DNA of 64,000 nucleotides from the NCBI RefSeq assembly GCF_004766045.1, contig NZ_SPQQ01000003.1:248001-312000 (forward strand). Direction: 5' to 3'. Shown here in pieces: positions 8,099 through 64,000 of the stretch (its first letter is position 1; the number at the start of each line of letters is the position of its first letter). The translations under genes and the position numbers were made by a program. The notes under the pieces were generated by a model. That model saw only the letters and a program-made list of their open reading frames with translations. It searched no databases and was not told the DNA's origin. The stretch comes from Desulfosporosinus fructosivorans (GTDB taxonomy: Bacteria; Bacillota; Desulfitobacteriia; Desulfitobacteriales; Desulfitobacteriaceae).

Positions 8099-9151
8099 AT
8101 GCATATGGCAGATGCCTTGATTTCACCGTTAGTGGGTGGAACCATGTGGGTGGCAACAGCGGGTGTTGCGGCCTATTCGATTAAGAAGATTCAAACCGAA
8201 ATGGATGAAAAGAAAATTCCTTTAATGGGAGTTATGGGTGCGTTTATCTTTGCCTCTCAGATGATCAACTTCACGATACCGGCGACAGGTTCGAGTGGTC
8301 ATATTGGAGGAGGCTTAATTCTAGCGATCTTACTAGGTCCTTATGCGGGCTTTTTGACTATGGCATCAGTACTCACGATCCAAGCTTTGTTTTTTGCAGA
8401 TGGAGGGTTGCTGGCCCTAGGGAGTAATATCTTTAATATGGGATTTTTCTCATGCTTTATTGCCTATCCGTTAATTTATAAAGGACTTATGGCAAAAGGT
8501 TATTCGACGAGGCGGATATTGTTTGCCTCTGTACTTACGGCGATCATTGGCCTTCAGTTGGGTGCGTTCGGGGTCGTGCTAGAAACGCTCTTTTCCGGTA
8601 AGACCGAGTTGCCTTTTGGGACGTTTGTCTTATTAATGCAGCCGATTCACCTGGCAATCGGTGCAGTAGAAGGCCTTGTCACAGCAGCTATTGTAACTTA
8701 TATTTGGAACCAGCGCCCAGAAATTATTGAAAAGGCAGCCTCTGGACAAGCGATTGGTAATGTCTCCATCAAAAAGGTTGTAGCGGGAATGGTCGCAATC
8801 GCAGTGATTACAGGGGGAGGATTATCGTGGTTTGCCTCTTCCAATCCAGATGGCTTGGAATGGGCTATGACTAAGACTGCTGGTACAGCTGAACTGGAAG
8901 CACCCGATGGCATACATCAGCAACTGTCTGAACTACAAAGCAAAACAGCCTTTCTACCTGATTATTCCTTTAAGGCACCCGTCAATGATACGGAACAAAT
9001 TGCTGGAGAAGCCGAAGAGACTTGGCCTGCTGTCAGTGGAGGAACGAGTACATCCGGTCTAGTTGGCGGAGGTTTGACGCTTGCCCTAGCTGCCCTTGTG
9101 GGTGCGGGTATCAGTCTGCTAAAGCGAAGAAAGAATGGAGCAAGGGCTTAA
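8099..9151 (+). CDS. cbiM: CbiM/NikM-type substrate-specific component with PDGLE tail
   Basis: 350 residues from the ATG at 8099, next to GGAGGGA; an upstream TTG is rejected. It starts MHMADALISP: the family's N-terminal amine and His2 help bind the metal ion. About six helices make the CbiM core (to ~215). Then a linker, another helix and the PDGLE motif (NPDGLEWAM) of CbiN/NikN-type domains, ending in a last helix and basic tail. The protein captures Co2+ or Ni2+ for an ECF importer together with cbiQ and cbiO downstream. Sequence alone does not separate cobalt from nickel. Confidence 0.88.
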   Translation: MHMADALISPLVGGTMWVATAGVAAYSIKKIQTEMDEKKIPLMGVMGAFIFASQMINFTIPATGSSGHIGGGLILAILLGPYAGFLTMASVLTIQALFFADGGLLALGSNIFNMGFFSCFIAYPLIYKGLMAKGYSTRRILFASVLTAIIGLQLGAFGVVLETLFSGKTELPFGTFVLLMQPIHLAIGAVEGLVTAAIVTYIWNQRPEIIEKAASGQAIGNVSIKKVVAGMVAIAVITGGGLSWFASSNPDGLEWAMTKTAGTAELEAPDGIHQQLSELQSKTAFLPDYSFKAPVNDTEQIAGEAEETWPAVSGGTSTSGLVGGGLTLALAALVGAGISLLKRRKNGARA

Positions 9152-60948: not shown

Positions 60949-61042
60949 GCTAAATAATCTTCTACCTTGTCGAACAGACCGACAGAAAACAATTTTTAAT
61001 TACGTATTAGAATATAAGATCTTTTTTTGAGGAGGAGTCTAT

Positions 61043-61153
61043 ATCGAAAGACTAGATTTTTTCGTAACTGCCATCTGCTTCTCTGTTTTAGGTTATGCCC
61101 TATGTTACATTACTCTTTCATGTAATAGCAAAATTAAAGATGCAAAACGTTAA
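61043..61153 (+). other. Possible 36-residue single-helix membrane peptide with non-standard start
   Basis: GAGGAGGAG sits about seven bases before ATC (61043), which opens a frame encoding ERLDFFVTAICFSVLGYALC, more hydrophobic residues and a basic end KIKDAKR. There is no ATG/GTG/TTG in the frame after the preceding TGA. Form and size are those of small membrane subunits. An orphan terminator at 61354-61393 shows that this region is probably transcribed. Speculative. Confidence 0.25.
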
Positions 61154-61393: not shown

Positions 61394-61581
61394 GTGCGTT
61401 TATGAGGGAACATCATAGAGCGTCTTATTCCAAGTGCGATCCTGTTATCAGGGCTCCTTATTCATGAGAAATTCACAACTTTTTCATGAGATAATCGTAT
61501 CCAAGCGTTACACTAAGGACATGGAAGAACTGCAAACGAACGAAGCAAGCAGTAAATGAAATCAATTGGGAGGTATAAACA

Positions 61582-62007
61582 ATGAGAAGATTTAATAAGA
61601 AAGTTACCGCGATTATCGCAACCGCAACATTAGCAGTGGGCCTCATGGCTTTACCGGCCTTAGCAGAGACGACCCGGCAACAAGGGGACGGGTGGTTTGG
61701 ACAAATGCAAGGTTACATGCAGAAAACCTTTTCGCCAGAGCAACACCAAGAGCTAATGAATTCAGCTGAAATGCAAAACCTTCATAACTCGGAAGGAATG
61801 CAAAAGGCAATGCAAACAGGAGACGTTACGCAGATGCTAGAATTCATGAATTTAGATTCAGCGGTTAGAGCACAAATGGGGCAAGAAAACCTTGATAAAA
61901 TGAACGAAATCATGAGTAATTCCGGAGGGAGCATGATGACTAACGGGAATGGTATGACTGGTTCACGAGGTAATATGATGAACGGAGTCAAAGGGGGAGA
62001 GCTATAA
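61582..62007 (+). CDS. Secreted methionine-rich protein
   Basis: 141 residues, ATG after GGGAGG. Cleavable signal peptide (KKVTAIIATATLAVGLMALP, AxA site at ALA). The mature part has about twenty Met, many in MQ/MxxM clusters (WFGQMQGYMQKTF, MMTNGNGMTGSRGNMMNG), and few charged residues. Met-rich exported proteins commonly bind Cu(I)/Ag(I) through thioethers; no named family recognised. First of three same-strand genes, followed by two SHOCT membrane proteins, with a sensor kinase convergent. Confidence 0.65.
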   Translation: MRRFNKKVTAIIATATLAVGLMALPALAETTRQQGDGWFGQMQGYMQKTFSPEQHQELMNSAEMQNLHNSEGMQKAMQTGDVTQMLEFMNLDSAVRAQMGQENLDKMNEIMSNSGGSMMTNGNGMTGSRGNMMNGVKGGEL

Positions 62008-62228
62008 TGATGATTGGTATAATCCTATTAATCTTTATTGCGTATTACATGTTTAGTTCATCGAATGCTGGAGGGTCATGCTGCGTGGGCCATCAATCTC
62101 AGTCAAATAGCTCACTAGATATATTGAGTGAACGATATGCACGCGGTGAGATTCAAAGAGAGGAGTACCTTGAAAGGAAACAAGAGCTGTCTGGGCAAAA
62201 GCAGCAAATATCTATTAAAAAAGAATAA
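62007..62228 (+). CDS. SHOCT-domain membrane protein 1
   Basis: 73 residues; its ATG shares one base with the previous TAA. One N-terminal helix (about 2-18), a Gly-Ser linker with GGSCCVGH (adjacent cysteines and a histidine, possible metal ligands), and a C-terminal SHOCT motif, LDILSERYARGEIQREEYLE. SHOCT segments are short oligomerisation helices often found in small membrane proteins. Cotranscribed with the Met-rich gene. Confidence 0.7.
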   Translation: MMIGIILLIFIAYYMFSSSNAGGSCCVGHQSQSNSSLDILSERYARGEIQREEYLERKQELSGQKQQISIKKE

Positions 62229-62298
62229 ATAGCGTTTACTTTATGGATGAATGGGAATATCTAAGGTTGAATATCAAAAATTTGAAGGAGGAATTTAT

Positions 62299-62559
62299 AT
62301 GATGGGTGGTTGGGGATATGGTGGATATGGAAGTGGCGGCTATGGGATGATGGGGATGGCGGGGATAGGAATGCAACTTATCTTAGGGATTGGGATTATT
62401 TTACTGGCTATCTATCTATTTCGTCGCCATGCCTCGCACGTTCATACAGGAGGACTAAATAAGCACAGTGGAATGGACATCCTGCGAGAGCGGTATGCAC
62501 GTGGTGAGATAGATTCCGCTGAGTATCAGAGTCGGAAAAGAGATCTAGAGGGTAAATGA
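62299..62559 (+). CDS. SHOCT-domain membrane protein 2
   Basis: 86 residues from the ATG at 62299 (GAAGGAGG upstream; an earlier frame start is rejected). N-terminus is Gly/Tyr/Met-rich (MMGGWGYGGYGSGGYGMMGM), then one helix (LILGIGIILLAIYLF), a His-containing loop (RRHASHVHTGG) and a SHOCT end MDILRERYARGEIDSAEYQS. The two SHOCT ends are clearly paralogous. His and Met content again suggests metal contact. A shared bidirectional terminator follows. Confidence 0.7.
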   Translation: MMGGWGYGGYGSGGYGMMGMAGIGMQLILGIGIILLAIYLFRRHASHVHTGGLNKHSGMDILRERYARGEIDSAEYQSRKRDLEGK

Positions 62560-62656
62560 GTCTGTGATTGGGGCCATCATTGAGCACGTGTTTGTTAAGT
62601 GTTTTGCCCGAGAGGGACAGATTTTTACCTGAATAGTTATCATACATTAAATGTTT

Positions 62657-62703
62657 GAAAGAAAAAGTGGCCGAGGATCTAATCCTCAGTCACTTTTTCT
62701 TTC
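62657..62703. terminator. Bidirectional terminator between SHOCT gene and histidine kinase
   Basis: GAAAGAAAAAGTGGCCGAGGAT-like arm (62657-62678, in parts GAAAGAAAAAGTGG and CCGAGGAT) pairs with ATCCTCAGTCACTTTTTC (62682-62699) and further TTTC. A/T-rich ends serve both directions. The kinase stop codon lies inside it. Confidence 0.75.
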
Positions 62704-64000
62704 TTGGAAGCTGGACGATGAATACAGTCTCATGCTCGACTTTACTCTGTACGGTGATCGTGCCTTGATGTAGATCTATAATCTGGCGGACCAGCGCAAG
62801 ACCGATTCCTGTTCCCCCTGTCTCACGGGTCCGGGATTTGTCGGCACGGTAAAATCGCTCGAATATTAAAGGAAGATCTTCTTCAGAGATGCCTATACCA
62901 GTATTGCTAATCTTAATTTCAGCGGATGTCGGAGTGCTTGTAAGGGCGACGGTAATCTGACCTCCTAAATTTGAGTACCTATAGGCATTATGCATCAAAT
63001 TATAGAATAGCCTAGTAAGAAGGTGCTCGTCCCCGGATGTTGTCACAGATTCTTCCGGAGCATTCCAAGTTAGAGTTAATTCCTTTTCCTGGATAAGAGG
63101 AAGAAGGCTACGCATAATTTTTTCAAGAAGATGCCTTATGTCCACAGGCTCAAGCTTTAGCTGTAATCCACCGATTTCAGCCACATTTAAGTCTTTTAGA
63201 TCGCTGGACAAGTCAACTAGACGGTTGATTTCCTCATGAATAGAGGCGAGATTTTCCTGATTTGCAGGAAGAACGCCGTCTTGAAAAGCTTCAATATAAC
63301 TTTTGATCGAGGTCAAGGGAGTGCGCAGTTCGTGGGCGATGTCGGCAGTAAACTGTTTGCGGAGGGTTTCTTGGCGATTTAAATTGTCTGCCATCGCATT
63401 AAAAGCATTTGCAAGTAGTCTTACCTCGTCTTTGGAGCGAACGGAAACACGCTCGTCAAGGTGGCCATGCCCAATACGATTGGCTGCTTGCGTTAATCGT
63501 CTGAGTGGAGCGACGAGTTGGCGGCTTGTAAAGAAACTGAGGATAATTCCAAAAAGAAGCGCCAATCCTCCAGCGAAGAGTAGTGAACGGAAAACTGTAG
63601 ATTGGAAGCGGACATCTTGGGGATTGAGGATCTGTGCGGTTGCAGGGTAGCGAACTTCTGCAGTGGCTATAGTCCCTAGAGGTCCCGACACAGTATATTT
63701 TTTTGTTTTCCAACTTGTTGTGGAATTCGAGGACATTCCCATCATACCCATTTCGGCATTTCCGTGCATCATGTCTTCCATAGTGTTGCTTAACGTAGCG
63801 ATAAGTTTACCGGTTGGATCTGTCAAAGTAACAACTGTGCCCATAGGGAGGGCGTGGGAAACTTCGTTCAAAGACGTAGAATCCCAAGTCCCCTTAGTCT
63901 GATAAAGGGCACTCAGACGAGAAGGCAACTGTTCTAACGTTGCCTCATTCGCCTGGGTTAAATAATCACTAAACTGTTGTTTGAATACGAAATTCACGGC
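62690..64000 (-). CDS. Sensor histidine kinase with Met-rich sensor loop (N-terminus beyond the window)
   Basis: At least 436 codons; the frame is open to the right edge, so the first membrane helix and true start are missing. Extracytoplasmic region (~1-135 of what is visible) contains MEDMMHGNAEMGMMGMSSNS, a Met/His cluster. Then a helix (SLLFAGGLALLFGIILSFF), HAMP (RIGHGHLDERVSVRSKDEVR), HisKA (TADIAHELRTPLTSIKSYIE) and HATPase (NLMHNAYRYSN, GTGIGLALVRQII). The Met cluster in the sensor and the Met-rich genes next door point to a soft-metal stimulus such as copper. Confidence 0.85.
   Translation of the reverse strand, partial: AVNFVFKQQFSDYLTQANEATLEQLPSRLSALYQTKGTWDSTSLNEVSHALPMGTVVTLTDPTGKLIATLSNTMEDMMHGNAEMGMMGMSSNSTTSWKTKKYTVSGPLGTIATAEVRYPATAQILNPQDVRFQSTVFRSLLFAGGLALLFGIILSFFTSRQLVAPLRRLTQAANRIGHGHLDERVSVRSKDEVRLLANAFNAMADNLNRQETLRKQFTADIAHELRTPLTSIKSYIEAFQDGVLPANQENLASIHEEINRLVDLSSDLKDLNVAEIGGLQLKLEPVDIRHLLEKIMRSLLPLIQEKELTLTWNAPEESVTTSGDEHLLTRLFYNLMHNAYRYSNLGGQITVALTSTPTSAEIKISNTGIGISEEDLPLIFERFYRADKSRTRETGGTGIGLALVRQIIDLHQGTITVQSKVEHETVFIVQLPRKKK

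Follow-up and report, generated by a model that had tools for sequence, protein, structure and literature searches.

At the right end of the window (the whole 64,000-nucleotide stretch of Desulfosporosinus fructosivorans DNA that was analyzed), three genes on the plus strand face a fourth on the minus strand, and all four open reading frames are present where the first-pass annotation of this DNA had placed them. The first gene (61582..62007, plus strand) encodes an exported methionine-rich protein of 141 amino acids, hereafter MRP, characterized from the list of open reading frames, its composition and profile searches. Its stop codon is overlapped by the start of the gene for SHOCT1 (62007..62228, plus strand), a short membrane protein of 73 amino acids with a Cys-Cys/His motif and a SHOCT tail. 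The third gene (62299..62559, plus strand) encodes SHOCT2, a short membrane protein of 86 amino acids with the N-terminus MMGGWGYGGYGSGGYGMMGMAG and a SHOCT tail. A bidirectional terminator (62671..62689) lies between SHOCT2 and the convergent gene for a sensor histidine kinase (62690..64000, minus strand; 461 amino acids), which contains HAMP, HisKA and HATPase_c domains and a Met-rich extracytoplasmic loop, MEDMMHGNAEMGMMGM.

The end of the window cuts the kinase gene, which extends for another 76 bp and is complete in locus L007 (L007:5691-7076). A response regulator gene (L007:7069-7761, outside the window; Response_reg and Trans_reg_C domains) adjoins it; a gene of this type was among those that the first-pass annotation had proposed to look for just to the right of the window. 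According to the open reading frames and profile matches in L007, the regulator gene is followed by genes for two FtsX permeases, an ABC ATPase, an FtrD-like protein (PF10080), a polyferredoxin and a YtkA-like protein; the latter includes a Met-containing stretch, and its YtkA match is under the curated cut-off. A simple sigma-54 promoter pattern gave no clear site upstream of the YtkA operon. Two copies of a gene for a short single-span peptide of approximately 35-45 amino acids (MEGLDLLVTSICFSILGYVLCYLTLS...) flank the module, at L007 ~8330-8470 and at ~61038-61152 of the window; in the window copy, ATATCG replaces the ATG start.

Methionine content and conservation of the encoded proteins

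The first-pass annotation considered a Met-rich composition shared by independent proteins unlikely to arise by chance. We compared the Met content of each protein with the background of 2.75% in the remaining open reading frames of the window, using a binomial test for enrichment. Mature MRP, which follows a clear Sec signal peptide ending in ALPALA before E, contains 16 Met among 113 residues (~14%; P ~1e-7), whereas the enrichment is modest in SHOCT2 (7/86; P 0.01) and absent in SHOCT1 (3/73; P 0.33). The kinase loop accommodates 7 Met in a 16-residue stretch, compared with 4 in the runner-up open reading frame of the window. Judged by these counts, the composition is striking in MRP and in the kinase loop, whereas SHOCT2 shows a modest bias and SHOCT1 none that is significant, so the original statement holds for MRP and the kinase, only in part for SHOCT2 and not for SHOCT1. 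Furthermore, SHOCT1 and SHOCT2 are not fully independent witnesses because the SHOCT tail is common to both; each passes the PF09851 cut-off of 27 bits (27.3 and 34.5 bits, respectively). The SCC...H motif of SHOCT1 is retained by most of its orthologs. A silver-induced SHOCT protein has been reported from a haloarchaeon (PMC10694973).

Homologs of MRP were detected in 33 of the 46 genomes of the family, with up to 11 copies per genome, and in one Alicyclobacillus. Met positions are conserved in MRP. MRP has no family match in Pfam or NCBIfam; the structural model of this protein, a low-confidence fold of short helices (pLDDT 60.6), yielded no significant match in a fold search, and PDB sequences yielded no credible hit in profile searches with either MRP or the kinase sensor domain. 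Plasmid searches with MRP and SHOCT2 produced no useful result.

The Met cluster that had been attributed to the kinase itself is present in 17/17 close orthologs, with several Met residues fixed, others variable, and indels. Seven distant kinases that are only 56-60% identical retain a Met-containing loop, in some cases with fewer Met residues; across these proteins, the sequence and length of the loop drift while the Met loop persists.

The promoter box and the copper island

Alignment of 49 MRP upstream regions revealed a conserved block, TTCATGAGAAA-TTCACAACTTT-TTCATGAGATA, that consists of three TTCAY repeats with exact 11-bp spacing followed by a -10-like TACACT. In the window, this box (TTCATGAGAAATTCACAACTTTTTCAT; 61461..61487, plus strand), which is conserved in front of 45 genes orthologous or paralogous to MRP, lies within a block that reaches ~61499, and the probable -10 element of the MRP promoter occupies positions 61509..61514 of the same strand; the T, A, A, C and T positions of this element are highly conserved in 45 promoters, and its distance from the box is fixed. 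The exact pattern, TTCAYN6TTCAYN6TTCAY, has 8 matches in the 6.1-Mb genome, all of them at the MRP promoter or at C34:155.7-170.4 kb, compared with 2 matches of the reversed pattern that served as the control; across 30 genomes of the genus, there are 228 exact matches (at most 32 per genome) versus 14 for the control. Among the fetched loci, the box is located upstream of MRP genes 45 times and also precedes genes for CsoR, Lgt, the SHOCT pair and a GMM-rich exported protein, with 0 control matches. The number of boxes correlates with the copy number of the kinase (Spearman 0.68) and of MRP (0.72), correlations to which genome quality and common ancestry may contribute in part, and the sole genome without a box (G020) lacks both the kinase and MRP.

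Regulators of the OmpR family typically bind direct repeats with a period of about 11 bp. The TTCAY box can thus be predicted to be the binding site of the OmpR-family response regulator, although another OmpR-family protein could instead read the boxes.

The copper island of the same genome (about C34:155-171 kb) encodes CsoR (PF02583, 94.4 bits against a cut-off of 22.8), a CopA ATPase with two HMA domains, two MRP copies that flank CsoR-CopA, a SHOCT2 paralog (L009:5026-5253), Lgt, a Met-rich lipoprotein and a GMM-rich exported protein. Exact boxes precede both MRP paralogs, the genes for an NlpC/P60 protein, for the GMM-rich exported protein and for a small exported peptide with Cys residues, as well as the gene before CsoR; a relaxed search added a site directly upstream of CsoR-CopA. 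Considering all genomes, 14 of the 59 MRP genes have a CsoR gene no more than 20 kb away, compared with an expectation of 3.2%, which is a rough value that takes no account of relatedness.

Several other products of the island deserve mention. The lipoprotein (L008:11020-11259) consists of 16.5% Met. The exported protein with GYGMMGGQGA repeats (L008:16590-17528), which has its own TTCAY box, represents another family of Met-rich exported proteins in the island. The Cys-containing peptide (MKKIFTIITTGFMIMAFSNTAFAS...CAQL..CAQMSICNQ; L009:5496-5680) is encoded downstream of a double TTCAY box. The island also includes an orphan DsrJ-like multihaem cytochrome (NF038038, 161.7 versus 100 bits) together with an NrfD/DsrP-like membrane protein (L008:13292-14917), with no DsrM, K or O in the list of island open reading frames; similar DsrJ-like/NrfD-type pairs occur in MRP loci of relatives (L063, L064, L067).

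Relatives and known metal-response systems

Almost all of the named relatives belong to Desulfosporosinus. The succession of MRP-SHOCT1-SHOCT2, kinase-regulator and FtsX-FtsX-ABC-FtrD-polyferredoxin-YtkA is found also in L041, L044, L047 and L078, and partially elsewhere; conservation of the cluster, which the first-pass annotation had proposed as a check, is accordingly seen in several species. In strain HMP52 and in UBA8487, the kinase, regulator, MRP, CsoR and CopA are encoded within one 20-kb stretch (L042, L054). A lack of metal-related neighbors in every relative had been named as the outcome that would speak against a metal response; the opposite was found.

Beyond the genus, four genomes of other genera retain the kinase-regulator pair with one box nearby: in two of these genera (L141, L145), the box is located directly upstream of the FtrD-ABC-FtsX operon, and in the remaining two genomes, it is found next to the regulator gene. 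At three of the seven distant kinase loci, no box occurs in the vicinity. The occurrence in other genera ties the box to the kinase-regulator system, with the regulator as the predicted binding protein. In the Desulfosporosinus genome studied here, no box was detected upstream of the FtrD/ABC operon even at a low score, and we therefore treat this operon as a syntenic neighbor; nevertheless, the arrangement in L141 and L145 suggests that an FtrD-type operon could be an older target of the two-component system. In Alicyclobacillus sp. ALC3 (L119:9971-15693), an MRP homolog is encoded next to a kinase-regulator pair, together with a Met-rich multicopper oxidase containing a MSGMSGMSGMNMGNMNM stretch and several TlpA-like thioredoxin genes.

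The closest known parallels to the signaling pair are CusRS and CopRS. As in these systems, an OmpR-family regulator is combined with a membrane kinase that carries Met/His residues in an extracytoplasmic loop, the predicted site consists of direct repeats with an 11-bp period, and an export ATPase, one of the targets there, is a predicted target here. Escherichia coli CusS senses copper via a Met triad (M133-135) and His residues that belong to a flexible loop in the periplasm (PMC10100754), and CopR of Corynebacterium glutamicum CopRS recognizes direct repeats with an 11-bp period, TGAAGATTTnnTGAAGATTT (PMC3140484). In contrast to CusRS and CopRS, three TTCAY repeats are found here at many promoters rather than one, the predicted output consists of secreted Met-rich proteins and of SHOCT proteins, and the scores remain below the cut-offs of the curated heavy-metal models.

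In the combination of a signal peptide with 14% Met, MRP resembles SilE and PcoE, which are likewise small, exported and rich in metal ligands, and by analogy might be a soft-metal buffer; PcoE has been suggested to sequester Cu early (PMC7558416). MRP differs from these proteins in its Gram-positive host, its multiple copies, its predicted short-helix fold and the lack of a match to any Pfam or NCBIfam family, hence no homology to SilE/PcoE by these profiles. The cluster polyferredoxin is, like the cupric reductase CcoG that reduces Cu(II) (PMC7558416), a membrane protein with Fer4_5-type iron-sulfur domains; it has no match to the CcoG model and weak similarity to NapH, and by analogy could reduce Cu(II) in the manner of CcoG.

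Within the genus itself, a CsoR-type repressor and a CopA ATPase are also encoded by the copUAZ copper operon of Desulfosporosinus sp. OT, which, according to Mancini et al. 2016, is reportedly under repressor control only. Unlike in that case, the box upstream of CsoR-CopA in the present genome suggests a second, two-component input. Our literature search on copUAZ, on SHOCT/methionine-rich proteins and on Desulfosporosinus/methionine-rich proteins found no description of such a system, nor of a two-component copper regulon in Desulfosporosinus. The claim that no described system has this composition nonetheless applies only to the combination as such and to the MRP family because each individual part resembles a known kind; by analogy, Met-loop sensing and Met-rich buffering would be akin to CusRS and SilE/PcoE, whereas the combination and the MRP family appear to be new.

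A predicted soft-metal regulon and its alternatives

Taken together, the CsoR-CopA island with its MRP paralogs, the common box, the proximity of MRP to CsoR and the conservation of the Met loop favor the sensing and buffering of Cu(I) or Ag(I) originally proposed from the sequence of the locus. Most probably, we are dealing with a two-component regulon that responds to Cu(I)/Ag(I), with this locus as its regulatory hub and as one of its output arms. By means of its Met-rich loop, the kinase would detect Cu(I) or Ag(I) on the outer side of the membrane, similarly to CusS, and, judging by gene adjacency, would phosphorylate the OmpR-type regulator, which would then activate promoters with the three TTCAY repeats. 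The predicted outputs are the secreted Met-rich and SHOCT membrane proteins, which may bind the soft metal outside and at the membrane, joined by the CsoR-CopA export operon and further exported proteins encoded in the island, which have the box in common.

Classification of the kinase by profiles and structure leaves room for a general envelope-stress system, similar to BaeSR or WalRK, whose signal would be a damaged envelope rather than kinase-bound metal and whose regulon would merely include copper export. The curated heavy-metal models fall short of their cut-offs (TIGR01386 and the CusS model NF007345 for the kinase, 216.5 versus 292.55 and 157.2 versus 423; TIGR01387 for the regulator, 173.7 versus 279.2). 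The top NCBIfam model for the kinase is that of BaeS, an envelope-stress kinase, and in a fold search with the sensor domain, WalK extracellular domains come out on top, with CusS (5ku5) in third place as a weak match (E 0.04, TM ~0.37-0.42). Moreover, NlpC/P60 and PspA-like proteins, which belong to general envelope functions, are encoded by box-controlled genes in some genomes. However, the BaeS score of 276.9 is far below the cut-off of 500, kinases as divergent as those described above maintain the Met loop, and the studied genome has boxes nowhere except at the MRP promoter and within the copper island. We consider an envelope signal unlikely.

Still less probable is a metal-redox or iron-uptake regulon, with an FtrD-like/ABC/FtsX operon as the ancestral target and copper as a secondary one, notwithstanding the position of the box directly upstream of such operons in L141 and L145. 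The operon adjacent to the regulator indeed combines a DUF2318/FtrD-like protein, an ABC ATPase and two FtsX permeases, which are also adjacent in the FetMP-FetABCDEF (P19) system of Campylobacter, and FetABCD supports iron uptake in C. jejuni, where the substrate of the FetBCD-type ABC transporter is stated to be unclear (PMC10783030). In contrast to that system, neither an FTR1 permease nor a P19 protein nor a thioredoxin gene is present among the L007 open reading frames, which instead include the polyferredoxin and the Met-containing YtkA-like protein; the operon is linked to a Met-loop kinase, and the box-controlled genes of the studied genome are those for CsoR-CopA and Met-rich proteins. 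Met clusters favor Cu(I)/Ag(I) over iron. Finally, the notion that the Met-rich sequences are low-complexity products of drift or sinks for methionine oxidation, with unrelated neighbors, could appeal to the Met content of SHOCT1 and SHOCT2, but is barely credible given the conserved Met positions in MRP and the kinase loop, the common box and the synteny.

Under the copper/silver reading, a tentative evolutionary scenario, which we regard as possible albeit somewhat doubtful, is that the Met-loop system was rewired in sulfate reducers, from an ancestral FtrD-like/ABC/FtsX operon to secreted Met-rich sponge proteins together with their SHOCT partners and to CsoR-CopA. In that case, copper handling in Firmicutes would involve the FetABCD-type ABC transporter, and a new secreted Cu(I)/Ag(I) buffer would be made up of the MRP and SHOCT families. 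The box delineates a testable regulon, provides a starting point for identifying the substrate of the FetBCD-type ABC transporter and, at the level of sequence analysis, assigns a probable role to Met-rich and SHOCT proteins that had remained unannotated; the copper tolerance of acid-mine Desulfosporosinus is relevant to metal bioremediation.

The box extends to additional genes in some genomes. It was detected before a gene that resembles one for a sigma-I-like RNA polymerase factor (L040 ~14886, L076 ~13403) and, in other species, before a PspA-like gene (L074), a hint that the regulon may have a broader envelope arm.
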